Source: Asterias amurensis (taxonomy: Eukaryota > Echinodermata > Asteroidea > Forcipulatida > Asteriidae). Taken from it: a DNA stretch of 64,000 nt. Below the pieces are notes generated by a model. The model made no database searches and was not told where the DNA came from. It saw only the letters and a list, made by a program, of their open reading frames with translations. Below, piece by piece: positions 4,785-63,499 of the stretch. Both the position numbers and the translations under genes were made by a program. The stretch is taken from contig NC_092652.1 in NCBI RefSeq assembly GCF_032118995.1, positions 20,010,544 to 20,074,543 of the forward strand, read 5' to 3'. The number at the start of each line of letters is the position of its first letter. Position 1 is the first letter of the stretch.

Positions 4785-15522
<10,738 letters not shown>

Positions 15523-20155: not shown

Positions 20156-23100
20156 TTATATATCGGACACCATGAAGAGATAATCTGCCAAGCTTGGAAG
20201 CTCAGGATGACTCGGTGGCACCAATTCAAAGCCCATGAACTTGAAGGTTCTGATGAGTTGTGCCCTGTCCACTGCATCTCGACGGAGGCCGATGATGACC
20301 TGGGTGCAGCCAAGGTGCTCTTCAGCAGCATCCAGAAGAGCAACAAAACTACAAGGAACAAACAAAAGGAAAAAACTTACTAGGGATATTCTTAAGTAGG
20401 ATTTGAAACTTTGTACGGTGGAAGTACAACTGAGAGAGATTTGCGATAACACCACGTGAATATCTCTTTTGAGTAGTGGTGGTTCTGAGAAAGACCGGTG
20501 GTAAATACTCAACGCTCTCCTGAAGGCGATCAGAGCATACTGATCAAAACATTGAGTCGTTAACCAACAGTTCGTTTGAACCCCACACGGGGAACTGACT
20601 GGGTAACATTTAAAATAATTTGGGTTGTACAAAGAAAAATTTACTGTTGACTGGAGCGCAACTTGGATCTGCAATCAAGCCCTTAATAATTCTAATGCCA
20701 TGGCTATACAGTAAATAATCATCAAAATAGAGCTGCTAAGCACAAAAAGAAGCCAAGCATAACAAAATTACGCTTACCAGAAAAAGGTTACCAGCAGAAG
20801 TACATTTTGTGACTGATATCCTGCTAAGCAGAAAACTGTTCAGCAATATTTTCTGCTTAAGTAGGTCTTCAAAATCAGGCCCTGGTGAAATAAAGATTTT
20901 GTATTTCCAGCCCAATTATTGTACATACCTGTCTCTACTTCCCTGATGTGCTAAATCATCTGGCACCTGAACATACAGCCGTTTGTTCCATAACACAGTC
21001 TCCCACACCAACTTCCTGTTATCCGTCAAATAATGAATGAAACGAAGAAATTTCTTGTCCCCATGACCGGGAACACCTGCTGCATTTTCATCCTTAGGAG
21101 TAAATTAAAACAATTTGATAATGTTAGAGAGCTGTAAGGGGTCATGAATTACAGGAAGTTGAGGCAGTATCATAATGCTGTCATTAACAACCCTGCAGCT
21201 TGAGGGACTTTGGCCAGATTTGAAGGCTCTGCTAACCGTAACCAAATAAATCTGCACTTACGCCAAGCATATTTCACAACGGGTTAGAACATCCTAAAGT
21301 TGTAAAATTGTTTTACTCATTTCTCCAAAATTACAGCACCTCAGCAAGTAATATGTAAAGGGAAGCTTCCCACCATGATTATCATTAAACTGTGTCATTT
21401 TTATGTAAATCTGTGGATGTTTGTGTTTTGCGTCGTACAAAAAGTACCCAAACCCTTAAAGACAGATATCATGCATGCATGTGCCATTCAGCCTCTATGT
21501 CCATCATGCTGAGGTCATAAGGTCAAGTCCCTAGCATGTACATGTAGTTGCACATCAGGAACCCCATGAGCAAGTTGATTCATGTCAAGGTCAACTGTAA
21601 CCACCTAAATGGCACAGCAGCAGGTCGTGAGCTGGCCTACTCTTCATTAATTAATAAAATGGCATATACAAAAATAAAATAAATCCAACTTGTTTGCTAT
21701 GAAAAGCAAACAAGGAGTAAGGAAACAGTGGCAACAGTGTAAACACTATGAAATTTGCAATGGCTGATTTAAATAAATTTATCAAATAGTAATGTTTAAT
21801 TTGGTGCAAACATTTTTCTCCTAAATTTTTTTTGATGTCTCAACTTTGTATTGTGTAATATTTACTGCTTTTTAAAATAGGTATTCTCTGAATATTTTCC
21901 TGTAAATGGACCCTTGGTCGCCATTGGAAATTTTGTTTTCAAGGAATAAACCATTAATGAATGAAATCTTACTTTGAAGAATGATGCAAATATGCCGTCC
22001 GCACTGCTTGTTTCCTCAACGTCTTCCAGGACTAATCCCTGGCTGCTTCCTGAAGGAACATCAGGAATACCACTGGGATTCTCGGCAAAGCTGAAATATG
22101 TAGTGCTTCCCGGACTCCCTATGGTAACAAACGATTAGAAACAAAACAGGTAATTAGACGCGGCACTCATCTGGACAGTGTGGACATGCCTCATCAAGCG
22201 ATGGCTGTATGACAGTGACGTGTCATCAAACGATGGCTGCATGACAATGACTAACCAGGCAGTGTCACTCTGGCATGCTTGATGCTTGATCCTGTTTTAA
22301 TGATTTTTTTAAAGAGGCTATATAATGTTACTTGTACATGTATAAGAGTCAAACTGGGGTTTTTTAGGGACACTTCTAAGATGTAAAAATTCCTTTCAAA
22401 ACTCAAATTAAAGTTGTAAAAAATTAATTGGTGTTAGGGTTTCTTTCTTTTCAATAGGACGTATTTTGTACAGTAAAAATCTTGCATATTTAGGCCTACA
22501 TTTTATCTCTATTTAATCCAAACTCAGATACCTAATTAGAGTGTACCCTTCAACTCTGTTTGTCACGAGAAAGTCACCAAGGAAACCAACAAGAGCGCAC
22601 CATCACCAAGGCAACCAGTGTATATGGTATATAGTTAACTAAGCCTACTATATTATTATCTAAAATGCCAGACTGTAACAGTGCATGTTCATAATTGCTT
22701 GTCTACTAATTTCGTAGTGACAGGAAAGTGTTCACTTTAGTGTTTACTTTACATAGCATTGTACAGTGTATGTCCACTTTAAACTTCCTTGTGACCTGTA
22801 AGTGAATTGCCATTAAGTACAAAATACTGTTCTGCATTATTTGTTGTAAAAATCTACATTGAATAAAATTGATTGGGTATAAATGGCAGCTTAATGTAGG
22901 AAGAACATTTAACATATATCATTGCCATTGTGCATGGATGCAAGCTTCAATTATTCATCAAAATCAACATCCGAATCATGTTTTCTTGAATCTTGATTGT
23001 TTATATCAAGAGTTAAGTTTCATCAGTTTTAAAATTAATCGGACCAAAAAATTACCCATTTCTTTTATCTGGAGGTTTGAATCCCTATACCATGTTTAAC

Positions 23101-25778
23101 TTGAAGATTAATTTTAGACTTCCCATATGGCTCTTTAAAATTTGTTTTCATTAAATTTGATTTTTTTTTTTTTTTTTTGCTTTTTAGTTCCGGGTAATTT
23201 CTTTCATTGCAACGTTCAAGTTATTTATTTGATAAATTACCACAAACGTACTTTTCTGGGATAAAAAATTTGAACTTTTTTAGAAGAAATTCAAAGCAAA
23301 GTGTTTCCACTCCCAAAAAATACAAGAAGATTTCCTAAAGAGTCTCCCCAACGTCTTTTGATAAGTGACAATGCCCACATTTCTCAATTAAATTTGAGAG
23401 CAAAAGACAAATGTGTAATGGGTGGAATATCACACCAGGAAATCCTGTCATTCTATACATAGGCCCTATAGTTTAGTAATGTACGTGATTGGAATTGTGA
23501 AATCACTTACTGTGTGGTTCACATTTCAGTTTGTCTTGACAGCAATTGTGAAACCACACACAATACTGGTATGCTAGTTGTACCAGACTACAAAGGACTA
23601 TTAAAAAATTGCTACTGTTGCGATCGTGAATGATTGTACCACGCACCAAAACTGATGAGTGTTGACCTTTGGTCCTAGCGTCTGATCTGACTCAACAGGT
23701 TTTTATCTGGTTCCTGCTGGTTTTATTTCATGCAGATTTTACTGTGAATTTAATCATAATAATACTTGAGAATTCATTGGAAAACTTCAGTTAATTTCAA
23801 CTTGGAAAAATATAATTTACAAAGTTAAAAGTTTTTTCTTCTTCACGAGATCATTGCTTTGAAAATGTTATTTTGAGAGTGTTTTTGCTTCTCTGAGAAT
23901 ATGGGCATCAATATGAGCCTATTCTTTAGAATTTTTGTATCACTTTTCAAATTCAAGAAAATTAAATACATCTCCAATTTGACTTCTACTTGTGCCTTAC
24001 AAAATTGTTCTCACATGTCTCTGTATTGTAGCCCCAAAATGAGGGGAAAACAACTGAAAAGTTGCATGCCGTTGCCTTATTTTGAGTGACTTCCTTCAAA
24101 AATAAAATGGATGCCACGAACAGTCTGCTTGCTATTCCAAAATTTGAAAGAACATAATTTCAGTGAGTGCTTGCTATTCCAAAAGTTGAAAGAACATAAA
24201 TTCAGTGAGTGGAAACTAAGAAAAGAAGACACTGAACATAAATAGCCTATCAAAACAGCTGAGTCATCCACACTTGTGCCGGTGAATGTGTGAGGATGGG
24301 AGAGAGGATAATCAACATTTGCAAAGCCACTGATTTTGTTACAACAATGGAGGAAAAATAGTAGTATTTAATAATATTATTCAATAATAAGATATTTGTA
24401 GGCCCTAACCTGGTGGTTACGTTAAAAACCTTGAAATTACAAATTTGAAATACCAATTAAACAAAGCCTAATTAATGCACAGCTAGTATTTTACACACAT
24501 TTTTGTTTGTTAACAAAAACCAGGTGTTGGGCTTTCGTTGGGTCATTGTTTGAATCGATGAAAAGAGTGTTGTAAAAGGGAAGGTACATGCTTGGTAAAC
24601 ACTCGAAACAAATTATAACTTAAAAGGTAACAAGCATTGGAGAGGTGTCGCTCTAGTATAAAACATTGTGAGAAATGGCTCCTTCTACCTCCATGCTCTG
24701 AAGTAGTGTAGATTTTGAGAAAGAGGTAATTTCACACTAAAATATTAAAAGACTTCTAAGTTCTAGCCAGAAGTCTTTAATTCTTAACTGAAAGCACACA
24801 AATTCGTCCAACAAGGGTGTTTTTTCGTTCATCTCTTTCTCGCAACTTTGACGACCAATTGAGCCCAAATTTTCACAGGCCTGTTATTTTATGCAGATAA
24901 CTTTCTGTATGGCGCCACCACTTTTTCACTCATTTTTACAAAAAGGGATATTTCATTGAGGTAAATTAGATACTATATTATTTCATATCGAGTGAAAAAG
25001 TGGTGGCGCCATACGGAAACTTTTCCTTTTATGCTTATGCTGGAATACACCAAGTGAGAAGACTGGTCTTTGACAATTACCAAACGTGTTTTCAGTGCCT
25101 TTTATGGATAACTTTCCGTATGGCGCCACCACATTTTCACTCGTTTTTACAAAAAGGGATATATCAATCAGGTAAATTAGATACTATATTATTTTGTTTC
25201 GAATGAAAAAGTGGTGGCGCCATACGGAAACTTTTCCCCTTTTATTAACAAGTTTTTTATAGCTCTCTATCTAAAATGCATAAGAAAAATCAAAATTAAA
25301 ATGTACTTTTGATGTGATGGTAAAGCATCAACATAATAGCCATTAAAAACGCCTTTTTCAAAGCATTTCTAAAGGCATCCGGTTTAGACAGTTCAAAAGG
25401 TCATGGAGGTAGCGAGGCGAGAAGTAACACAAAACACTTGTCAAAAACAAAAACCAAAATAACACTTAAATTAAGCTTGTTATGAACCCCACCCCCAAAT
25501 CAAGGTTAAAATAAATACAACAACCTTATATATAGAGCCAAGATACACCTAAACTCATGGTAAAAAGTGACGAATAACCGAAATAACCTCAGACAAAATA
25601 GATTGCGCAAAAATTACACCCAACAAGGCAACAAAACAAAAAGAAAATCTTACAACATGGCGGCGACGTCCGCGGAGAGCTTGCTGTTGAAGGTTGGCTC
25701 CCCTCTTTGCGACGTCTCTTCTTCATGTTTATCAAAATTTTGATCCAGCTTGGCTGCTTTATTTAGCGATAACACCAT
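20156..25778 (-). CDS. OAZ: Ornithine decarboxylase antizyme with +1 programmed frameshift, 4 exons
   Basis: Antizyme binds ornithine decarboxylase monomers, sends them to the proteasome and restrains polyamine uptake (family knowledge). Coding exons: 25778-25654, 22118-21973, 21092-20929, 20348-20156, all GT-AG. ORF1 is 60 codons, starting MVLSLNKAAK and ending ...RESQWYS followed by TGA. Reading resumes in the +1 frame as DVPSGSSQG for 148 residues, giving about 208 in all (vertebrate OAZ1 is about 228). The +1 part has the family hallmarks: LVWETVLWNKRLYVQVP, SFVALLDAAEEHLGC, RAQLIRTFKFMGFELV, ending in ADYLFMVSDI and TAA. The frame cannot be read as one ordinary ORF from the first AUG. 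Family biology says high polyamine levels raise the frameshift rate, a feedback loop. A second AUG at 25726-25724 opens directly into the +1 frame (see findings). Intron 1 (3.5 kb) holds two hAT-like MITEs. I cannot say which OAZ paralog this is. Confidence 0.95.
22061..22072 (-). promoter_or_regulatory. Antizyme +1 ribosomal frameshift site
   Basis: On the minus strand the bases read TGG TAT TCC TGA, with TCC at 22066-22064 and the ORF1 stop TGA at 22063-22061. This is the animal antizyme shift site (TCC TGA followed by T). After TCC the ribosome skips the T of TGA and continues with GAT. Downstream, TTCC/GGAA can pair around TTCA, and CCAGG/CCTGG around GATTAGT. These may form the 3' stimulatory structure known for the family; pairing was judged by eye. 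Confidence 0.93.
22150..22255. repeat. Small direct duplication near the antizyme frameshift exon
   Basis: A block like TCATCAAGCGATGGCTGTATGACAGTGAC occurs twice in tandem (33-bp step) with a few substitutions, within antizyme intron 1. Confidence 0.75.
24120..24212. repeat. Tandem duplication, 44-bp unit
   Basis: TGCTTGCTATTCCAAAA then GAAAGAACATAA and TTCAGTGAGTG occur twice side by side in antizyme intron 1. Confidence 0.85.
24600..25105. mobile_element. Family A MITE interrupted by a hAT-like MITE
   Basis: The A element is present from about 24600 (TTAAAAGGTAACAAGC) to 24894 and resumes at 25027 with TTTTATGCTTATGCTGG, ending GTTTTCAGTGCCTTTTA. The 132-bp element at 24895-25026 splits it, so the A copy is the older insertion. 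Confidence 0.8.
24895..25026. mobile_element. hAT-like MITE nested in family A, 8-bp duplication
   Basis: 132 bp from AGATAACTTTCTGTATGGCG to GGCGCCATACGGAAAC then TTTTCC. TTTTATGC is present on both sides (24887-24894 and 25027-25034). Confidence 0.9.
25106..25237. mobile_element. hAT-like MITE at the end of family A, 8-bp duplication
   Basis: 132 bp from GGATAACTTTCCGTATGGCG to CGGAAACTTTTCC, flanked by CCTTTTAT at 25098-25105 and 25238-25245. Only 79 bp from its sister copy. Confidence 0.9.
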
Positions 25779-26140
25779 CACTTCAATTTGTGTTCAATTA
25801 AATCTAATTTTTCAGGCTTTGCTGAGAAAGAATCGAGTGAATTCGATGTGAGAGAACTGCTTTTCCGTTTCGTGAATCGTGTTGTTGCACACACATACAC
25901 AACCGAGCTACATGTAGTCTTCAAATCAAGTCAGTTGTGTGGACGACGTGTAGCTCTCTGCTGCATGCTGCAGCGCATATGATGCGGGGACGATACACAC
26001 ATCCTCGATCCCTTATGTAGTGTGTGTGAGTCACGCACTACACCTACGACCGTTGCATGAACGATAATTGCACTGCGACTGTTGCATGATCGGCAGAATG
26101 TGTGTTCGGGGCAGCGGTAACGACTTGTCATCAAGTCTAG

Positions 26141-26229: not shown

Positions 26230-26263
26230 GCCTGAAATTATGTTGTCTATACCGGTATGCAAT

Positions 26264-26680
26264 AATGTCCGCCGGACGGTTTTGCACATGCAATCGTGTC
26301 CGCCCGGACACTGCTGCATAATGCAATTGTGTCCGCCCTGACACATTTGCATATGCAGTTGTGTCCGCCCCGTGCAAAACACTCCTTGCAGTAAATTAAA
26401 CGCCCTTGGTCGACGGAAAGCGTTCGCCATTTAAAAAAAAAAAAAGCTTTTAGTGCATGTCATGGTCATGGATGACTTGGGAAATGTTCAGCCCTTGGGT
26501 ATGCTGCATATCATAGGTTCACTGAATGCACGCTCGCTTACGCGCGCACATACATACATGTACACAGTCATGTACATGTCCGCCGGACAGTTTTTGCATA
26601 GCCCCGGACACAATTGCATATGCAAAAGTGTCCGGAGCGTACAGTATTGCATAGCGGACACAATTGCATCTGACACTGGA
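26264..26680. repeat. Dispersed array of GTGTCCGCC / TGCATATGCA units
   Basis: Four units at 26264-26380 and about three, partly inverted, at 26577-26680. Each combines GTGTCCGCCCGGACA-like sequence with TTTGCATATGCAATTG-like sequence, spaced about 38 bp. It lies 0.5-0.9 kb upstream of the antizyme start. The ATTTGCAT core equals the POU octamer consensus, but a regulatory role is only a guess. Confidence 0.7.
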
Positions 26681-40400: not shown

Positions 40401-43400
40401 AGTAAACACTAAAGTAGCTAGCGAAAACATGTTTTGCCTCCCTATGTTTGCCCCATGGTTTTTTTCTGTGTGCTTTAACTCTCTCTCTCTCTCTCTATCC
40501 GTGTACATGTATTTCCATTTCACTGCTTATGTTACACTTAATTACCTGTTCATATTTGTTGTGCTGACATTAAGCCTTCGAGAAAGACTTTGCTCAAAAC
40601 GTCAGGCCATAAACTATTTTTTGAAATTGAAAACCATCTATCCAACGTAGTAATTGGGTCCAGGATTAGGTAGGCCTAACTTCTTTCAAATTGTATGAAT
40701 AACTTATTTCCACTTGACCTTTCAATGAAAGCTTTTGCCCAGTTTAGATTGAAACTCACTGAATAAATTTATTCTGTTTTTCGTTATGGTCACTTCGGGG
40801 TTTAAAACCATTCCAAGGTTCTTTGTTATTAAGTAAACACAATTTATCTTGCGTAGTAATTGCATCCAGTATTGAATAGGGCTAATTTCTTACAAATTCT
40901 ATGAATAAATTGTTTCCTTTCAATGAAGTTTGTTCTCCAAGCTTAGAGTAAAACTCACTGAATAAATTCATTTATGTTTTTTGTCAACAAGGAGTTTAGA
41001 ACCATTACCGAGGTTCCTCGCTGGGTCATTGGCAGGAGTAACAGCCTCTACACTCACTTATCCACTAGATTTCATCAGGGCTCGTATGGCTGTAACTAAC
41101 CGAAAAAGGTCTGTGGCTGATAGATACTCCCTGATTCGTTAAATCCTTGCACCAACGTCACACAGGCTTGTATATTGAAAGGTTGCATCCCCTTAAGGTG
41201 ATCTCTTGGGGCCTTTCTCAAACCACGGCTTGGGCTCCGGCTCAGGCTTAGGCTCCGCGCGCTGTGTGTACGAAGCTCGGCCTCTAACCTGCATTTTCAG
41301 TGCGTATTGCTGATTGTACACCGGCACGCGGAGCCTGAGCCGGAGCCTAAGCCGAGGTTTGAGAAAAGCCCCTGGCTGCCGTTGTTTAAGCCCCACCTGT
41401 TATTATTGTAATTTTATGTTTCTGAGAATGAAGCCAAGTATGCCTCATAAGGGAACTCAATAACTGCAGCTGGCAAGCCTGAGGAAACCTGTTGTTATTA
41501 TTATTATTATTATTTATTCGACAAGTACAAGTTACAACAGTCAAGTTGCAATAACACAAGACAGAACATTAACGGAAAAACAATTATAAAAAAGCAAGAA
41601 ATAAGGAAAACAAATACAGAATTAAATAAAAGAATAAATAAGGTTAAATTAAATAAAAATAACTAAATTTATTTGAAAAAAAAAGAAGAAGAAAAAACAT
41701 GATGAGGGTTCGGTGCTCTTTTATTTGCACTACCAATCCTAGTACACAGAAACTATGTCTAAAAGTCCCATGGAATGACAAGGCAATTATGGACTTAAAG
41801 GGACTTAAAAAGGACATAAGTGTCATGACCAGGGGCAGATTGCACCAAGCGGTCTTAAACTGGTCTATGCGCTATAGCCGGCTAACTTGAAAATGCGCTT
41901 AGACAGTCTTTAATTATAGACCGATTGCAATATCGCGGTCTACAATTATAGCCGGTCTTAAATCTTAAGCCTGCTCTGAGCTGGCTATAATCGGTCTTAG
42001 TTTTGTTTTTTAAAGATGGTGCTGCATTTGTTAGTTGTAGACGATTTGATGTGACGAGCTCTACGACGAGACCGAATATTTAGAGATGTATTACACCCAT
42101 TCTGCTGATCAGAAACACCTGGGGTTGATTTTCACAAAGAGTTAACTTACATGTACATGTAGGACTAGTCCTAGGAGATATTTAAACTTAAGGCTAGTCC
42201 AACTTTCCCAAGCTCTGTGAAAAAAAAACCCAGGCATTCTTGGGTGGGATTTGAACACATGACCTTTGCAATTCTAGAGCAGTATCTTACCAACTAGACC
42301 ACCGAGATTGCCCTATAGCTAGAGGCAGTTCAAATCCTGAGTACGAGTATACAGTGCTATGCACATTTCCATCCAGGTGTTCAAGATTTGAAAATGCAAG
42401 AATTTTTAATATACTTTTGCACAGTCACAAGACTATGGGCGGCATCATCATAAAGACGTTACGGACACACGGTTTTGCAAGTTTCTATCGAGGCTACCTC
42501 CCCACGGTGCTGGGAGTCATCCCCTATGGCGGAATCAGCTTCTTCATTTTTGAAACTTTGAAGAAAAAACACAGAGGTAGGTAATTAAAATTATGAGATG
42601 TCGATTTGGCAAATTTTAGTTCATGAAATGTTGGTTGTAAAAGCCTTTTTTAGGTATGATGTGATTTCTCAAAAATGTGATTTCTAAAAAAAAACTTCCT
42701 GATTTCAGGATTTTCTCAATACCCCCTTGATTTAAAGGATTATACATTGTATCATTCACCAAAAGGAGAAAGTAAATAGTTCACATTGTATCAAAGTCTG
42801 TAGTTTTATATGCAGCATCAGCATAGATTTTAAAATCATTTGAATTGCACCATCTGGGAGGTTCCCGGTCATGAATAAAGCGGGACCCAGACAAAATATT
42901 TTTTTCAGAATTTTTCACGAATTAATCTTCCTGCATTAACATAACTGCTCCAGATTTTTGGCGATATCTCAAATAACTCGCCACCTTTTGAAATGAAATT
43001 TTCAGGTGTTATTATTTTTTTTTTTCATCTACATTTATATGTTATGATTAAAACAATTGAATGATTACATACTTCAAAGGTATTTATTCTGTTTAATAAC
43101 ATTTTTGCTGAGAAATTTTAGGCAAAACAATTTAAGTGGGAAGCAAATCATGGCTTCTTCAATTGACCAACTTTCACTATTTCTCCCCCCCCCCCACCCC
43201 TGACAGAGCTGACCGGTCACTCCCACCCCAAGCCTCTTCAGAATATGGCATTCGGCGCTGTGGCAGGACTCGTCGGCCAATCCGCATCTTACCCCCTCGA
43301 CGTCGTCCGAAGGCGGATGCAGACCGCAGGAATAACCAAATACTCATACGACACGATTGTCAATACGGCCAAGGATATTTACCATGAGGGCGGTATTGTC

Positions 43401-43526
43401 AGGGGATTGTACAAAGGACTGAGTATGAACTGGGTTAAAGGTCCCATCGCTGTGGGAATAAGCTTTACGACCTACGACCTGGCCCATCGGTTCATTCAAC
43501 AGAGAGTTCTGCACGAGGACGTATGA
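34482..43526 (+). CDS. SLC25A42: Mitochondrial coenzyme A transporter, 6 exons, 331 aa
   Basis: Inner-membrane carrier that imports coenzyme A in exchange for adenine nucleotides (family knowledge). Exons: 34482-34589, 37003-37117, 37511-37694, 40992-41108, 42425-42576, 43207-43526. Lengths sum to 332 codons with stop; human is 318 residues. Three carrier repeats each show the signature: PLDRTK at residues 65-70, PLDFIR at 160-165, PLDVVR at 255-260. Strong family segments are [53 protein letters not shown] and [19 protein letters not shown]. Exon 1 (starts [10 protein letters not shown]) is inferred from an ATG-to-GTAAGG open block, phase 0 on both sides, with an upstream in-frame TGA at 34395-34397; its sequence is not conserved enough to prove. 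The exon 4 donor GTCTGT is weak, but its use gives exactly the human spacing. Confidence 0.94.
35250..35430. repeat. Inverted-repeat element, about 180 bp
   Basis: The left arm CACTGCAGCAATAACGATAA followed by CGATCACGACGCAAAGAGAA faces the right arm TTCTCTTTGCGTCGTGATCG. Arms of about 40 bp enclose a 70-bp middle. It lies in SLC25A42 intron 1. Confidence 0.85.
35570..35706 (+). mobile_element. LINE 3' end with (ATT)n tail
   Basis: One frame reads [14 protein letters not shown] then stop, the usual C-terminus of CR1/L2-type LINE ORF2 proteins (FKxxLKTYLF). Then comes GCGCTATATAAGTGCCGTTC and an ATT tail. Only this 5'-truncated end is present. Confidence 0.7.
36690..36830. mobile_element. SINE body fragment
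   Basis: CATGAGTAATATGCCTGTGA, TTTTTTCACAGACC, GTATTGAGTATACAGTGCTG and ATTCTTTATCCCCGATGCAA also occur in that order at 53880-54000, and in part at 42338-42365 and 47400-47450. Those last two carry tRNA-like heads. Confidence 0.6.
37130..37340. mobile_element. SINE/LINE tail fragment in SLC25A42 intron 2
   Basis: Begins with an ATA run then TATATGTAGCGCTTTATACA, and runs on through CTCCCTGGGGAGTATACAGCC. Reads as a minus-strand short retroelement with its tail at the left. Confidence 0.45.
37955..38255. repeat. Dispersed repeat, family E
   Basis: AAGGTGCTGTAATG, TTTACTAATTTCTC, AAACTGTGTAAGTTTAATGTAAATCTGTGGA and a DNA-transposon-like spacing. A shorter copy in antizyme intron 2 is at 21290-21465 (AAACTGTGTCATTTTTATGT then AAATCTGTGGATG). 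Confidence 0.55.
38445..38600. mobile_element. Family A MITE, right half
   Basis: GATGACCAATTGAGTCC, AGGTTTGTTATTT, ACACCAAGTGAGGACAC and the right end GTGTCCAGTGCCTTTAA. The left half is missing. Confidence 0.65.
39213..39585. mobile_element. Family A MITE joined to a foldback element
   Basis: CGCTATTGGTAATTACTCAA through to CATGTCCAGTGCCTTTAA. The left end runs directly into the 'ttaggac' foldback element at 39045-39212. Confidence 0.75.
40540..40640. mobile_element. Retroelement end fragment
   Basis: CCTTCGAGAAAGACTTTGCTC followed by AAAACGTCAGG resembles the conserved ends of Penelope-like and some LINE elements. Short and decayed; it lies in SLC25A42 intron 3. Confidence 0.3.
41213..41382. 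repeat. Inverted-repeat element, 170 bp
   Basis: The left arm CTTTCTCAAACCACGGCTTG plus GGCTCCGGCTCAGGCTTAGG faces CCTGAGCCGGAGCCTAAGCC and CGAGGTTTGAGAAAAGCCCC. Arms are about 55 bp. In SLC25A42 intron 4. Confidence 0.85.
41835..41995. repeat. Foldback element, 'tagaccg / cggtcta' type
   Basis: Facing units GGTCTTAAACTGGTCTATGC, ATTATAGACCG, CGGTCTACAATTATAGCCGG and CGGTCTTA. A palindromic short element in SLC25A42 intron 4. Confidence 0.6.
42235..42370 (-). mobile_element. tRNA-derived SINE head, minus orientation
   Basis: On the minus strand: GGTGGTCTAGTTGGTAAGAT (A-box like), then GTGTTCAAATCCCACC (B-box like), at tRNA spacing. Continues into the shared body (CAGTGCTATGCACAT on the plus side). 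It ends about 55 bp before the SLC25A42 exon at 42425. Confidence 0.65.
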
Positions 43527-52326: not shown

Positions 52327-53295
52327 ATGCAGAGTAACTACACTGTGAACGTTTCTCCATACGTTCGAGCATTGGACATCACCATCATAATCGCCGGTTT
52401 CCTGGGCAACTCATTAGTGTGCGCAGTGTTTCTCTCCAAATCTAATGCATTCCACAGCACAACCAACAAGCTCATTCTCCATCAATCCATAATCGATCTG
52501 ATCGCGATCATAATATTCCTCATCGCTAGGGTCATTGTTCATCCAGACGTTCAGGAGATCCCATCCGGGTCGATCTCGGCCCAGCTCTTCTGCAAGTTCT
52601 GGTACAATGACTTCATTATGTGGGGTGTCTTCTACGCCTCTACCTTTAATCTGGTCCTAATAGCCTTCGAGAGGTACGCAGCCTCCTGCCAGCTCATCTG
52701 GTACCGCAACTTTCGCCTGAGAGGTATCGCCAAGTTCGGCTTCCTCGCCCCCTGGATATTGGGGTTCGGCTCGCAGTCGTACATTGTGATTTTCACCTAC
52801 TACACGGACGGCGTGTGTTGGGTGATCTGGCCCGCTGAAGCTGCTCAACAGGTGGGTGGCGTGATCGTCTTCTCATTTGAGTTCTTATTTCCGATCATCA
52901 CAATGACGTGGTGCTACTCCAAGGTGATTCTTCTCTTACGGAAAAGAGAGAAAGCGAACCAGGCGGTTCTTCGGCAAGATAACATCTTCAGGCGCAGTAA
53001 GAATGTCGTGACCACCCTGGTGACCATCACCATTGCTTATGTCGTCTGTTGGATGCCGACGGAGATGATGTATCTTACCTTCAACCTAGGGCTGGTTGTA
53101 TATTACGGAGGAAATGTCTATTACATCTTCGCTGTACTGACCACACTGAACTTGGTGGTAAACCCATGCATCTACACATGTAAATACAAACAATTCCGGA
53201 AAATTTTAAGGGGTCTGGTCTGCCGGCTGCAGTGGGGCAGAAACGAAGTGAGCGACATTCACCCGCGTCTTCAGCAGATGAGGCATATACCTTAA
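52327..53295 (+). CDS. Class A (rhodopsin-like) orphan G protein-coupled receptor, 322 aa
   Basis: Seven hydrophobic segments lie at about residues 17-37, 48-70, 92-116, 136-157, 176-200, 228-249 and 262-284. Class A landmarks are present: GN at 27-28 in TM1, D57 in TM2, ERY (115-117) for DRY at the end of TM3, C89 and C164 for the extracellular disulfide, CWMP (241-244) in TM6, and NPCIY (279-283) in TM7. N-glycosylation motifs NYT and NVS lie in the short N-terminus. The tail ends RHIP, and ATTAAA at 53407-53412 could be a polyadenylation signal. The ligand cannot be told; short-loop peptide receptors and echinoderm-expanded orphan receptors are the nearest impression. The ORF starts in TTTTCCTTAAATGCAG, which is also a fine 3' splice site, so the true first residues may come from an unseen upstream exon. 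Confidence 0.9.
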   Translation: MQSNYTVNVSPYVRALDITIIIAGFLGNSLVCAVFLSKSNAFHSTTNKLILHQSIIDLIAIIIFLIARVIVHPDVQEIPSGSISAQLFCKFWYNDFIMWGVFYASTFNLVLIAFERYAASCQLIWYRNFRLRGIAKFGFLAPWILGFGSQSYIVIFTYYTDGVCWVIWPAEAAQQVGGVIVFSFEFLFPIITMTWCYSKVILLLRKREKANQAVLRQDNIFRRSKNVVTTLVTITIAYVVCWMPTEMMYLTFNLGLVVYYGGNVYYIFAVLTTLNLVVNPCIYTCKYKQFRKILRGLVCRLQWGRNEVSDIHPRLQQMRHIP

Positions 53296-54010: not shown

Positions 54011-56506
54011 TAATAAGTCTCCACTTGTCGACTGTTTATTCCATATTTTTATGTCCATACAAAAAAACCAACATTTTTAGTGCCCAGTGTCATAAAGCTG
54101 TTAAGCAGAAAATACCGCTTGACAAGTTTCTCGGCTAAGCACAACATGAGTGGGGTACCGGTCGTAAACTTTATGGAATGTTGGCCGGTAACTGTTGTTG
54201 ATAAGCAATATTTTGGGCAATGGGCCCAATTTCATAACGCGGCTAAGCGGCCGATTTTGTGCTAACTGTGCGATTTCCATTACACAGCGCTGCTAACCGT
54301 AAGCACATAAAAGGTATCCCTATAACCTTCCGTTCCAGTGCTTACCGCACAAAAATAAATGACGTCACAATTCAAATCCATGGTTAAACGCGCATATGAC
54401 CGCCAAACTTTTCTGCTAACCTGTGAAATACGCTTGCACCTTAGTGTAAGGGAGGTGTCTAGACCCTTTGAAATTACTTACATTTATAGCACTGCTTCAT
54501 TCTTACATGTTTTGTATACTGCCATTCCAATTACACATCATAATTTCATCCCCTAGTTAGGCATACTACTTCCCACTATAGACCTATAGGTGTGTTATAC
54601 ATGAAACAGCAGCAGGGTCAAACTAAGGTCAAAGCCAAACTTCATTAGCACAAACCCAAGTTGAAACAAAGGATTTCCAAACATGTACTTCATGATGTTA
54701 TAATTTATTAACCTATGGCATTCAGACATTTGTCTAACTACCTATTTTACTAAATATAAAATAATAATACATTTTTTACTGAGGGTTTAACTGTCATAGA
54801 AGTTGTAATTAAAAGGAGAAAAAGTAAGCTGCACAAACTACATGTTTACTTCTATACTTTGGATTTGCCTAGTAACAACGGGCTCCAGGCCACTGCCTGC
54901 CCCGACTTCACAGGTAAAGTTGCTTTATTTTTAATCCCATTTTAAACTTATTATTTCTCCATTTTATACTTAGAGTTTCACAAAGTGATTTATCTCATTT
55001 TTACAGAAAATTATTATAGATTTGTTTAATGATACTTGTGGAATTTTAGAGGCTTGTGAAAAGAGTGTATTTTTGAGATGGAAAATTGCCATGAAATATA
55101 GAAAATGGTACTTTTGAGAAGTACATAGTGTTTGTACTGCTGGCATATGTGTTATGGCCATGTGTAGTACTTGCAATGTGCTAATTAAGTAATGGGTTTT
55201 TGGTTAAATTCTTGTTGGCCTAATTTCAAGATAATAAGCTTTAGTACATGTCTCTTGTTCTTAAAATGAGCAACCATAAATTCTGGAAATGTAAACTCAG
55301 CAATTGCTTAGATACTGCTGGTGGATTTGTGCTTTTGGGGTGGGTTTGCTGCGCCGCTTGGTTGTTGCTAAAGAAATGCCTAACTGAGGGTTTGTTTCTG
55401 CCATATGTCTTTACACAGTTGCTGAGTAGTGTAAGCAAAAGTAAAACTGTGAATAATTATAATTAATAATTCCTTTTTGTTATCACTGCCTGCCCTGACT
55501 TCACAGGCGCAGGTTCGTCACAGATGAGAATAAATCTCCTAAACCTGAGAGCTGTCATTTAAAGAGAAGATTCCAAAGCCCTTCATTGAACCTGTGTGCC
55601 ATCCCCCTCCCTCAAGATTATCAACAAGTCCCGAAAGCACACTTCTCACATTAGCAAATTGTTCTGCTACAGTAAGCACGAAAATGTGCTTACCGTTAAG
55701 CAGCGCCATGAAATTGGGCCCCGTTCACTATACCTGTAAAGGGGCTGGTACTGGTTTCCTTCTAGATTCTATTCTACCGGGTGTCTCAAAAAAACTATAC
55801 ACTTTTGAAATGGCTGCCGAATAAAAAATATACGATTCTGGGGCAAAATGTTTATGTGTATGGATAGCTAATGGTCTCAACTTTCATATGACACCGAAAA
55901 GTCAGGAAAATAATTCATGCCCTGGGTGAGTACTGCTCACTTTTGTGAAGGGTATAAAAATAGGCTGCGCAGGAATTGGCCTTTCATAATAAATTCATGA
56001 TCAAATGCGATCAGTTTGGGTTTGCTGAGTGAATTTTATGGTTTATTAAACCATTTTTTTGTTTACTTCATGAGTGAACAGGAATTGCTTTTTGTTTCTT
56101 GTAGCATTGAAACTCTCCCTGGTATACTCAGTGGTGTGATCACGGAAGTCAGGATGGGGTGATGGTACATGTTGCAACTTCCATGTTACAAACTGTGTTT
56201 TTTTTTACATCTGTGACTTTGAATAAAAACCTTCACCACATTTCAGCTATTGTAAGATGAGTTGAACATTTCATTTTTTTTCGTATTTTATTGCGTTATA
56301 TCGCCGTATTTTATTGCGTTATATCGCCGTACTATGATAATGTTGGGACTGCTCGAATCAGCAATAAACGAGTATAATTCACAATTAATGTGCCCTAATT
56401 AGAAAATAAGTAATTAAAACAAGGTCTCAACTCACCTGAAAAAAACTTGGACCTCGGACGTCGTGCCTTGCGTCTTTGCCCCGTAGAATGATATCTCAAT
56501 AAAAAA

Positions 56507-56780
56507 CGGCGATTATAACGCAATAAATAGTACTGCGATATAAGGCAAAAAAATACGGCGATATAACGCACTAGTACGGCGATATAACGCAATAGTACGG
56601 CGATATAACGCAATAGTACAGCGATATAACGCAATAGTACGGCGATATAACGCAATAGTATGGCGATATAACGCGATAAAATACGGCGATATAACACGGC
56701 GATATAACGCAATAAAATATGGCGATATAACGCAATAGTACGGCGATATAACGCAATAGTATGGCGATATATCGCCGTAA
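56507..56780. repeat. Minisatellite, 21-bp unit ggcgatataacgcaatagtac
   Basis: About a dozen head-to-tail copies, some shortened. Because 21 is a multiple of 3, several frames stay open across it and give spurious repetitive proteins with LYRRTIA-like units. Related units also occur singly at 56285-56330, 57390-57430 and 57735-57800. Confidence 0.92.
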
Positions 56781-56783
56781 AAT

Positions 56784-57135
56784 AAAACAAGAGTTCTCTT
56801 GGAATTGGCGGATATGAGCCACCGTAATATCGCCATAGTAGGCTATACGATTGCATTATATCACCGTATTTATTGCGTTTTATCTTCAAGTACGCGCTAA
56901 TCATCCAATCAGATTGGCAGAATGGAGTGGTGCTAAAAACCTATAATGCACGGCTAATATCACTTCCATGCCTAAAATAAAACAAGAGTTCTCTAGGAAT
57001 TGGCGGATATGAGCCACCGTAATATCGCCATAGTAGGCTATACGGTTGCATTATATCACCGTATTTATTGCGTTTTATCTTCAAGTACGCGCTAATCATC
57101 CAATCAGATTGGCAGAATGGAGTGGTGAGAAAAAC
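56784..57135. repeat. Direct duplication, about 165-bp block
   Basis: The block starting AAAACAAGAGTTCTCTTGGA and running through GAGCCACCGTAATATCGCC to CAGATTGGCAGAATGGAGTG occurs at 56787-56943 and again at 56979-57125, almost identical, so the duplication is recent. Confidence 0.9.
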
Positions 57136-61691: not shown

Positions 61692-62433
61692 ATTTCTTCT
61701 GCGTTGAATTAATCCGACCGCGACACTTTATGTATTACCATACATAGGTTATCGTTCCAACGAACATCTGAATTACACCTGTCGTCATCATCATATTATG
61801 TGGGTATCAACACTGGAGTACTGAAGCAGCGGAGAAGTCAAGGGAATCATTATTGTGTTCCTGTGTGTGTACACTCTCACCATGATACCCCTTTCTCTAT
61901 GCACTCTCACATGTCAACCACAAAGGGTTTGAAGGTTGAAGTTTATACAACAAAAGACTAGACTTGGTTCGTGGCTTTTTAGTCGTCCTGATGGCCGCTG
62001 CAAACAGCGCCCTCTTGTGATCAACCTTCGTGTTTAGCCTAAGATCAAAATTGCGAGTTATAGGGCGCGTGATAGCTATTATTAATGTGGGGCGTTTTGG
62101 GGCTGAGATGCAGAAGAATAACTGCAATCTAAGACTTATATCAAGTCTAAAAATCAAAATACGTGATTAACATTTCTGTCGTTGGTGACGTCACAAATGT
62201 TGAGATTTGTTGAAGAAATGTTGAAATGTCTCACACCAAGCGAGAACACTGGTCTATGACCAATTCCAATGTTTGCGATATTACTTAAAGAACCACGTTG
62301 CCTTGGATCTGACGAGTTGGTCTATAAAAAGCGTTTGTAGCCGTTTTTTATAAAATGCATATGGTTGGAAAGTTTGCCTCGAAATTGCGTGGTTTTCCTT
62401 TTACTGTGCGAACTAACACGGTAGGCCGGTTAC

Positions 62434-62635
62434 ACCCCTATATTCCGACACCCCTATGTTCCGACACCCCTATGTTCCGACAATTCAGCCTATATTCCGA
62501 CACCCCTATGTTCCGACAGCCCTATATTCCGACAGCCCTATATCCCGACACCCCTATGTTCCGACAACTGAACCTATATTCCGACACCCTTATGTTCCGA
62601 CACCCCTATATTCCGACACCCCTATGTTCCGACAA
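62434..62635 (+). repeat. 16-bp tandem array CACCCCTATGTTCCGA
   Basis: Twelve units, alternating ATGTTCC and ATATTCC variants, with two longer units. Matches the inverted array at 62997-63118. Confidence 0.95.
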
Positions 62636-62996
62636 GTTGTTTCGCACATTATTACTCTGTTGATCAATAACAACAACACAACTTGTTTTACAGCCAGGTT
62701 TCCCGGTGAATTTCGGCCGGGATTAGGTTTGAACATTCATAAGATGAGTTTGTACTGTTTAAAAAAATGATGGAATCAAATTAAGATAATCGGTGCTTTG
62801 CTATTGTTAGATGCGTGTCCGACGTGTTGATAACATTTCATGAGCCTTCAATTAATAAAGATTCCAACCCTCTACTGCTACGTAAAGATATGTTACCGGT
62901 ACGTTTATGGACTAAATTGCGGTCAGGTGAAGTTTCTTTAAGTCGCACCGTTTTTCTTAAAAAACAAATGACAAACACAAAATATTGGTGCAGGTT

Positions 62997-63118
62997 GTCG
63001 GAACATAGGGGTGTCGGAACATAGGGGTGTTTGGGTCGTTGGAATATAAGGGTGTCGGAACATAGGGGTGTCGGAATATAGGGGTGTCGGAACATAGGGG
63101 CGTCGGAATATAGAGCAG
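62997..63118 (-). repeat. Same 16-bp array, opposite orientation
   Basis: Seven units of TCGGAACATAGGGGTG and its AATATA variant, the reverse complement of the array at 62434-62635, 361 bp away. Confidence 0.95.
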
Positions 63119-63499
63119 TCACCCGGTACCATTTATGGGAGTTGGGTTCCAGCCTTCATTCCATTAACATGTACACACGGGTGGATAGTCGGATACAGTC
63201 GGCGCGTTTTTTTTTTTTTTTTTTATGCCATTAACAACTTGCACTACAGACGAGAGAGAGGTTGACGTCCGTGGTCTGTCTTTTTCTGATTAATATCGAT
63301 CCGGTGTGAAATGTTTATTGCATCTGAAAGACAGCTGGCGCTCTCTTTTGACTCAACTTCCAATTAGCCGGCCTGTGTTACCGCTGCGCTGTGTACATAG
63401 TAAGGGTATGAAGGCTATAACCCAAACAACCTTCTAGGCTCTTGAAACAATATCGGACACAAAAATGTATGCAAACTATGCGACGAAGTACACGATCAA

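Follow-up and report, generated by a model that had tools for sequence, protein, structure and literature searches.

The window analysed here is a stretch of 64,000 nucleotides whose minus strand carries a four-exon antizyme gene between 25778 and 20156 (Table 1). Frames and splice signals were read from the sequence. The donors are GTAAGA (exon 1, at 25653), GTAAGA and GTATGT, the acceptors are AG, and the joins are those predicted from these signals rather than from transcripts. So joined, ORF1 comprises 60 codons that end with TGG TAT TCC and are followed by TGA at 22063-22061, and a +1 shift at residue 60 yields a frameshift product of 208 residues. An earlier note on this DNA let ORF1 open at the first AUG and close at the TGA of the shift site, and we recover exactly these coordinates.

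Table 1. Features of the antizyme gene and its 5' leader (positions in the window)
Feature	Position	Strand	Description
uORF	25896-25804	-	30 codons; weak AUG context (GTGTATGT)
Exon 1, coding part	25778-25654	-	125 nt; ORF1 codons 1-41 and two bases of codon 42
AUG1	25778-25776	-	ORF1 start; GAAGTG ATG G, G at -3 and G at +4
AUG2	25726-25724	-	+1 frame; ATAAAC ATG A, A at -3 and A at +4
AUG3	25658-25656	-	ORF1 codon 41, ORF1 frame again; context GCCGCCATGT
Exon 2	22118-21973	-	146 nt; carries the frameshift site
+1 shift site	22066-22061	-	TCC_TGA, then T; TGG two codons upstream of TCC
Exon 3	21092-20929	-	164 nt
Exon 4, coding part	20348-20156	-	193 nt; up to TAA 20158-20156

The gene is an ornithine decarboxylase antizyme, as identified by a match to the family PF02100 (ODC_AZ) and by the shift site UCC_UGA with UGG two codons upstream. 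The combination of UGG and UCC_UGA at the antizyme shift site has been described (PMC5009743, available text). The PF02100 match scores 66.9 bits for the frameshift product and 67 bits for the product of the second AUG described below (cut-off 24.2; E about 2e-18 for both). In the frameshift product it begins at residue 119; the domain is thus coded wholly in ORF2. When compared to the sequences of solved structures, the frameshift product matches three antizyme 1 entries at E 6.6e-22 to 1.1e-21 and one further antizyme at E 2.1e-20.

A family search of the 491.5 Mb genome detected one antizyme locus, and all five matching stretches of a protein search of the same genome lie within this gene. 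The DNA of exon 1 matched itself alone, with no second copy in the genome. Among the best first-look candidates scored in this genome, no retrocopy or paralogue was found against which the exon 1/2 junction could be checked. For the ornithine decarboxylase family (PF02784), five stretches above the cut-off occur at two places on one contig; the genome thus likely encodes the target enzyme of antizyme and possibly an antizyme inhibitor, too. Searches with the exon 3-4 part gave no pattern match in a viral contig collection, and of 25 pattern-matched stretches in prokaryotic genome contigs none was confirmed. These misses say little, as they come from viral and prokaryotic collections and from a query limited to the exon 3-4 part.

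Several repeats surround exon 1. Intron 1 contains, at 24896-25250, two direct copies of 131 nt that are 92% alike and have strong inverted arms (GTATGGCGCCACCAC type); they look like a small inverted-repeat mobile element. A cluster of short CGGACACAATTGCATATG-type repeats, both direct and inverted, lies at 26257-26672, about 480-900 bases upstream of AUG1. Further upstream, the segment 27235-27620 has 29-nt inverted arms that are 93% complementary, with AAAGCCAGTGGACACTATTGGTA, and resembles a miniature inverted-repeat transposon; inverted copies of parts of it occur in intron 1, within 24788-25089. Elsewhere in the window, we observed an intronless open frame for a rhodopsin-type receptor of 322 residues (52327-53295; PF00001, E 2.6e-27) and pieces of cytochrome P450 (58726-59991 and 61278-61727, minus strand; PF00067), the larger of which is a single open frame of 422 codons. 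At 42255-43523 (+) and 5299-5658 (-), we found exons of a mitochondrial carrier (PF00153) and a piece of a carbohydrate kinase (FGGY_C, PF02782). Long open frames of short tandem units, for instance ALYRRTI and DTPMFRHPYIPT in translation, occupy 56395-56940 and 62328-63155 and are probably minisatellites.

The coding part of exon 1 also contains a second AUG (AUG2) and the first portion of an open +1 frame. AUG1 is preceded in the ORF1 frame by a TGA (25796-25794), from which five sense codons separate it, and AUG2 follows 52 nt downstream of AUG1. In the +1 frame, the stop upstream of AUG2 is TAA 25765-25763. From AUG2 onwards, this frame reads MKKRRRKEGSQPST...GIPDVPSG... and is open across the exon junction and the shift site to the normal TAA; a start at AUG2 therefore needs no frameshift. 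With the exons joined as predicted, the product has 192 codons including the stop, or 191 residues. In position, frame and length, and also in the contexts of AUG1 and AUG2, this is what the earlier note had described. AUG2 is the sole AUG of the open +1 stretch ahead of the shift site, and EGSQPSTASSPR is an example of a peptide that the +1 frame encodes. AUG1 and AUG3 are both in the ORF1 frame, 40 codons apart; the earlier note is silent on AUG3 and likewise on the uORF at 25896-25804. Full-length antizyme from either of them needs the frameshift, and AUG2 is the exception that the sequence permits.

To estimate chance levels, synonymous versions of ORF1 were drawn with the protein held fixed, using 50,000 draws for each codon model (local usage or ORF1's own codons). 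An equally early open +1 AUG was present in 31% (local usage) and 30% (own codons) of the redraws, and in 20-37% across three codon models. The open +1 stretch reached at least its actual length of 54 codons in 46% (local usage) and 36% (own codons), and an early AUG and a long open stretch occurred jointly in 25% and 18%, respectively. Among random ORFs of 60 codons generated from local codon usage, 1.8% had an AUG this early in a frame open to the shift site and 5.1% had an open +1 stretch as long; shuffling the codon order of ORF1 gave an early open +1 AUG in 2.2% of the shuffles. We thus conclude that the arrangement is uncommon among ORFs generally, yet expected once ORF1 is given. Enumeration of codon pairs shows where this comes from in ORF1: six of its 59 dipeptides can hold a +1 stop under some synonymous choice, with only three of these six after AUG2, and two of the 59 can hold a +1 ATG, one being the His-Glu with CAT that forms AUG2. 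The three stop-capable dipeptides past AUG2 are Leu-Ser, Val-Ala and Leu-Glu, all located in ORF1 codons 34-43. Dual coding would be indicated by an alternative frame that is open beyond chance given the main frame, and the +1 frame here stays within chance. AUG2 is thus weakly special at most, and a single sequence cannot tell which of the two frames shaped the other.

The codon usage of the overlap gives a similar picture. Measured against 885 codons of the window (the rhodopsin-type receptor, the P450 pieces and antizyme ORF2), ORF1 scores +0.07 bits per codon, the +1 frame -0.26 and the third frame -0.17. The value of the +1 frame resembles that of synonymous redraws (-0.24), of which 57% (5,000 redraws) score no worse. 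Codon usage thus favours ORF1, and no +1-coding signal was detected in the overlap, where the test is weak at a length of 43 codons.

The product of AUG2 starts with the basic run MKKRRRK, with six Lys or Arg among its first eight residues. This run, which was picked for its striking look and tested post hoc, is matched by 0.5% of the redraws under local usage (P 0.005) and by 7% under ORF1's own codons (P 0.07). Three of the six basic residues derive from Glu codons under any synonymous choice, and ACG, TCG and CAA-AGA account for the excess. The MKKRRRK start is thus largely a consequence of reading Glu codons one base on. The very basic N-terminus proposed by the earlier note therefore stands out against local usage but much less so against the codons that ORF1 itself uses.

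We also looked at predicted RNA folds. A predicted hairpin in exon 1 (25654-25729, minus strand) has -23.7 kcal/mol and z -2.00, with 9 of 200 shuffles as good; this trimmed piece was selected after viewing the fold of the whole exon 1. At its base, it pairs the region of AUG2 with that of AUG3 through the palindromes CATG-CATG and GACGTC-GACGTC. The whole exon 1 fold has z -1.31 (17/200 shuffles as good), and a piece moved upstream has z -0.38 (64/200). With these shuffle counts, RNA structure in exon 1 is not convincing as a selector of AUG2. At the shift site, a perfect 7-bp hairpin is predicted (22067-22047, minus strand; UUCCUGA with UCAGGAA), which encloses the site in its stem. In a fold without pseudoknots, a piece of 41 nt chosen post hoc around this hairpin has -12.3 kcal/mol (2/200 shuffles as good). 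The fold downstream of the shift site has z -0.97 (29/200), and nearly the whole of exon 2 has z -1.40 (16/200). Rfam gave no match at the gathering threshold in 10000-40000; in 21900-22200, five weak matches were obtained at E up to 10, and no antizyme family was among them.

In the 5' leader, the uORF ends 25 nt ahead of AUG1 and 77 nt ahead of AUG2, and it belongs to the mRNA only if transcription begins upstream of it. Between the AUG of the uORF and AUG1, a consensus scan gave initiator-like matches, including those at 25851, 25841 and 25807, and a TCT-type match at 25831. As these matches are downstream of the uORF AUG, the uORF may be absent from the mRNA. In the 52 nt between AUG1 and AUG2, the hexamer TAAATA at 25765 was the one TATA-like hit of the same kind of scan, which gave neither a strict TATA box nor an initiator match. 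Intron 1 contains a TATA-box-like TATATATAAG at 25534-25525 (minus strand), about 120 nt past exon 1, which was spotted by eye and may be chance in AT-rich intron sequence.

The reading that we favour, at a probability of roughly two in three, is that of an ordinary antizyme gene in which AUG2 is an incidental internal AUG with at most a small frameshift-independent leak. Next to the observed frames, exon signals and chance levels, this reading includes initiation shares, a minor leak and a lack of selection, all of which we infer. The full-length product would arise mainly from polyamine-stimulated +1 frameshifting on ORF1. AUG2 would be a by-product of ORF1: His-Glu written as CAT GAA yields ATG one base on, the Glu codons GAR become Lys or Arg one base on and could hence supply the basic leader, and the few dipeptides past AUG2 that are able to hold a +1 stop would leave the frame open. 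Most ribosomes would initiate at AUG1, with its G at both -3 and +4. Of those that leak past it, some would initiate at AUG2, yielding a little antizyme that carries a basic leader and needs no frameshift, and others would pass on to AUG3 and re-enter ORF1, the regulated frame. A scanning ribosome would thus meet ORF1, then the +1 frame and then ORF1 again. Against the incidental reading stand the low frequencies of the arrangement when ORF1 is not taken as given (1.8% of random ORFs, 2.2% of shuffles), the A at -3 of AUG2 and the P of 0.005 for the basic run (local usage, post hoc).

A simple scanning model illustrates what a leak could mean; all of its efficiencies are assumed, including a basal frameshift of about 5% and an 8-fold induction by polyamines, and its output is an illustration and not a measurement. 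With a leak of 5% past AUG1, the AUG2 product would take 2-3.5% of the ribosomes, which is 0.4-0.7 of the basal frameshift output; with a leak of 10%, it would take 4-7% and about equal the basal frameshift. The 8-fold polyamine response would shrink to 5.1-6.0-fold at a leak of 5%, to 3.8-4.8-fold at 10% and to 2.1-2.8-fold at 30%. Under these assumed efficiencies, a leak of 5-10% would already blunt polyamine control, and as the output of AUG2 would then be near the basal frameshift level, selection should have noticed it.

The earlier note proposed a frameshift-free isoform. The sequence permits such a product, whereas its production or selection finds no support in an open frame and an AUG that are near chance given ORF1. 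If AUG2 were nevertheless a selected start, leaky scanning would provide a constant, polyamine-independent antizyme with a basic and possibly nuclear-directed N-terminus, and the overlap would be dual coding. The frame is open, the AUG context is usable, the arrangement is uncommon in random ORFs (1.8%) and MKKRRRK is more basic than the redraws from local usage (P 0.005). However, the arrangement is at chance level given ORF1, the +1 frame carries no codon-usage signal, the basic run has P 0.07 with ORF1's own codons, and the polyamine sensor would be blunted under the numbers assumed in the model. The present evidence favours an incidental AUG and a minor leak over a functional isoform, and we regard a selected start as unlikely. 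A bolder version, in which antizyme escapes its own polyamine sensor, is rather improbable: exon 1 would be dual coding, the start in the ORF2 frame would give a constant, frameshift-free and perhaps nuclear-directed antizyme as a floor to polyamine control, and AUG3 would bring the ribosomes still scanning back into the ORF1 frame.

Other readings change the mRNA itself. AUG2 might be used in some mRNAs only, either through a 5' end that lies past AUG1 but ahead of AUG2 or through delayed reinitiation after the uORF. The geometry of the uORF (25 nt to AUG1 versus 77 nt to AUG2) and the hexamer TAAATA would suit this. But the initiator-like and TCT-type matches past the uORF AUG may place the uORF outside the mRNA, its AUG context is weak, and the interval between the AUGs lacks both a strict TATA box and an initiator match, so that we consider this very improbable. 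Alternatively, the true exon 1, its junction or the first frame may differ, for example by another first exon or by an exon 2 that begins at 22114. In the acceptor ATAGGGAG, another AG follows after 4 nt (AG|T; 22118-22114, minus strand), and the donor of exon 1 has an atypical exonic end (GTT|GTAAGA). With exon 2 from 22114, AUG1 and AUG3 would both be in the +1 frame, open from AUG1 to the normal end, and use of this acceptor would give full-length antizyme without frameshifting from both of them. Yet GAG acceptors are usually weak, and the second AG would be such a poor acceptor. Furthermore, the standard join yields a complete ORF1 that ends at a textbook shift site, which would otherwise be a strange coincidence. 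A different exon 1, junction or first frame is therefore quite unlikely, and we retain the reading in which AUG2 is incidental and the leak minor.

Antizyme is a textbook case of regulation through the reading frame itself. Nothing breaks or tunes such control more simply than a start in the second frame, and the locus thus poses a clean question: whether evolution tolerates, removes or uses such a start. There may also be a practical consequence, as a gene predictor that takes no account of frameshifting might call a single-frame ORF of 191 residues from AUG2 and thereby hide the real frameshift. The antizyme finder OAF flags partial sequences, or ORF layouts unfit for +1 frameshifting, as likely erroneous (PMC2375905, partial text).

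When comparing this gene to mammalian antizymes 1 and 2, Drosophila Oda and abalone HdiODCAZ, we find the same layout, with PF02100 wholly after the shift site and an ORF1 ending in UCC_UGA. It differs from them in having an AUG in the ORF2 frame that lies upstream of the shift site and is open to it. Among the matches listed, which were available as partial texts and do not cover the principal antizyme surveys, no other antizyme is described with such a start. Alternative starts on one mRNA are as such familiar. According to the available text of PMC5009743, a localisation signal lies between the two start codons of antizyme 1, and antizyme 3 uses an upstream CUG start; the 40 codons from AUG1 to AUG3 compare with 34 in antizyme 1. 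The starts of antizymes 1 and 3 are apparently all in ORF1, so that full-length product needs the frameshift, whereas AUG2 is not in the ORF1 frame. In abalone, ORF1 has four ATG codons (PMC4551804, partial text), and several starts in an invertebrate antizyme are therefore not odd. The antizyme of Tetrahymena resembles the AUG2 product in being full-length without frameshifting; there, this is because UGA is reassigned and not because of an alternative start (PMC5009743, same partial text).

AUG2 can also be compared to leaky-scanning AUGs in human mRNAs, which likewise include an out-of-frame second AUG shortly past the annotated start (PMC7397870, of which part was available). Where the human start is strong, 38.0% of the mRNAs have their first downstream AUG in frame 0 and 11.3% have it in frame 2; by subtraction, about half have it in frame 1, to which AUG2 corresponds. 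At frame 1 AUGs after strong human starts, footprint density showed no significant change, and most alternative-frame translation is, in the authors' expectation, useless (PMC7397870, same part). The nested ORFs in human mRNAs are mostly very short, whereas here the second frame is that of the working protein.
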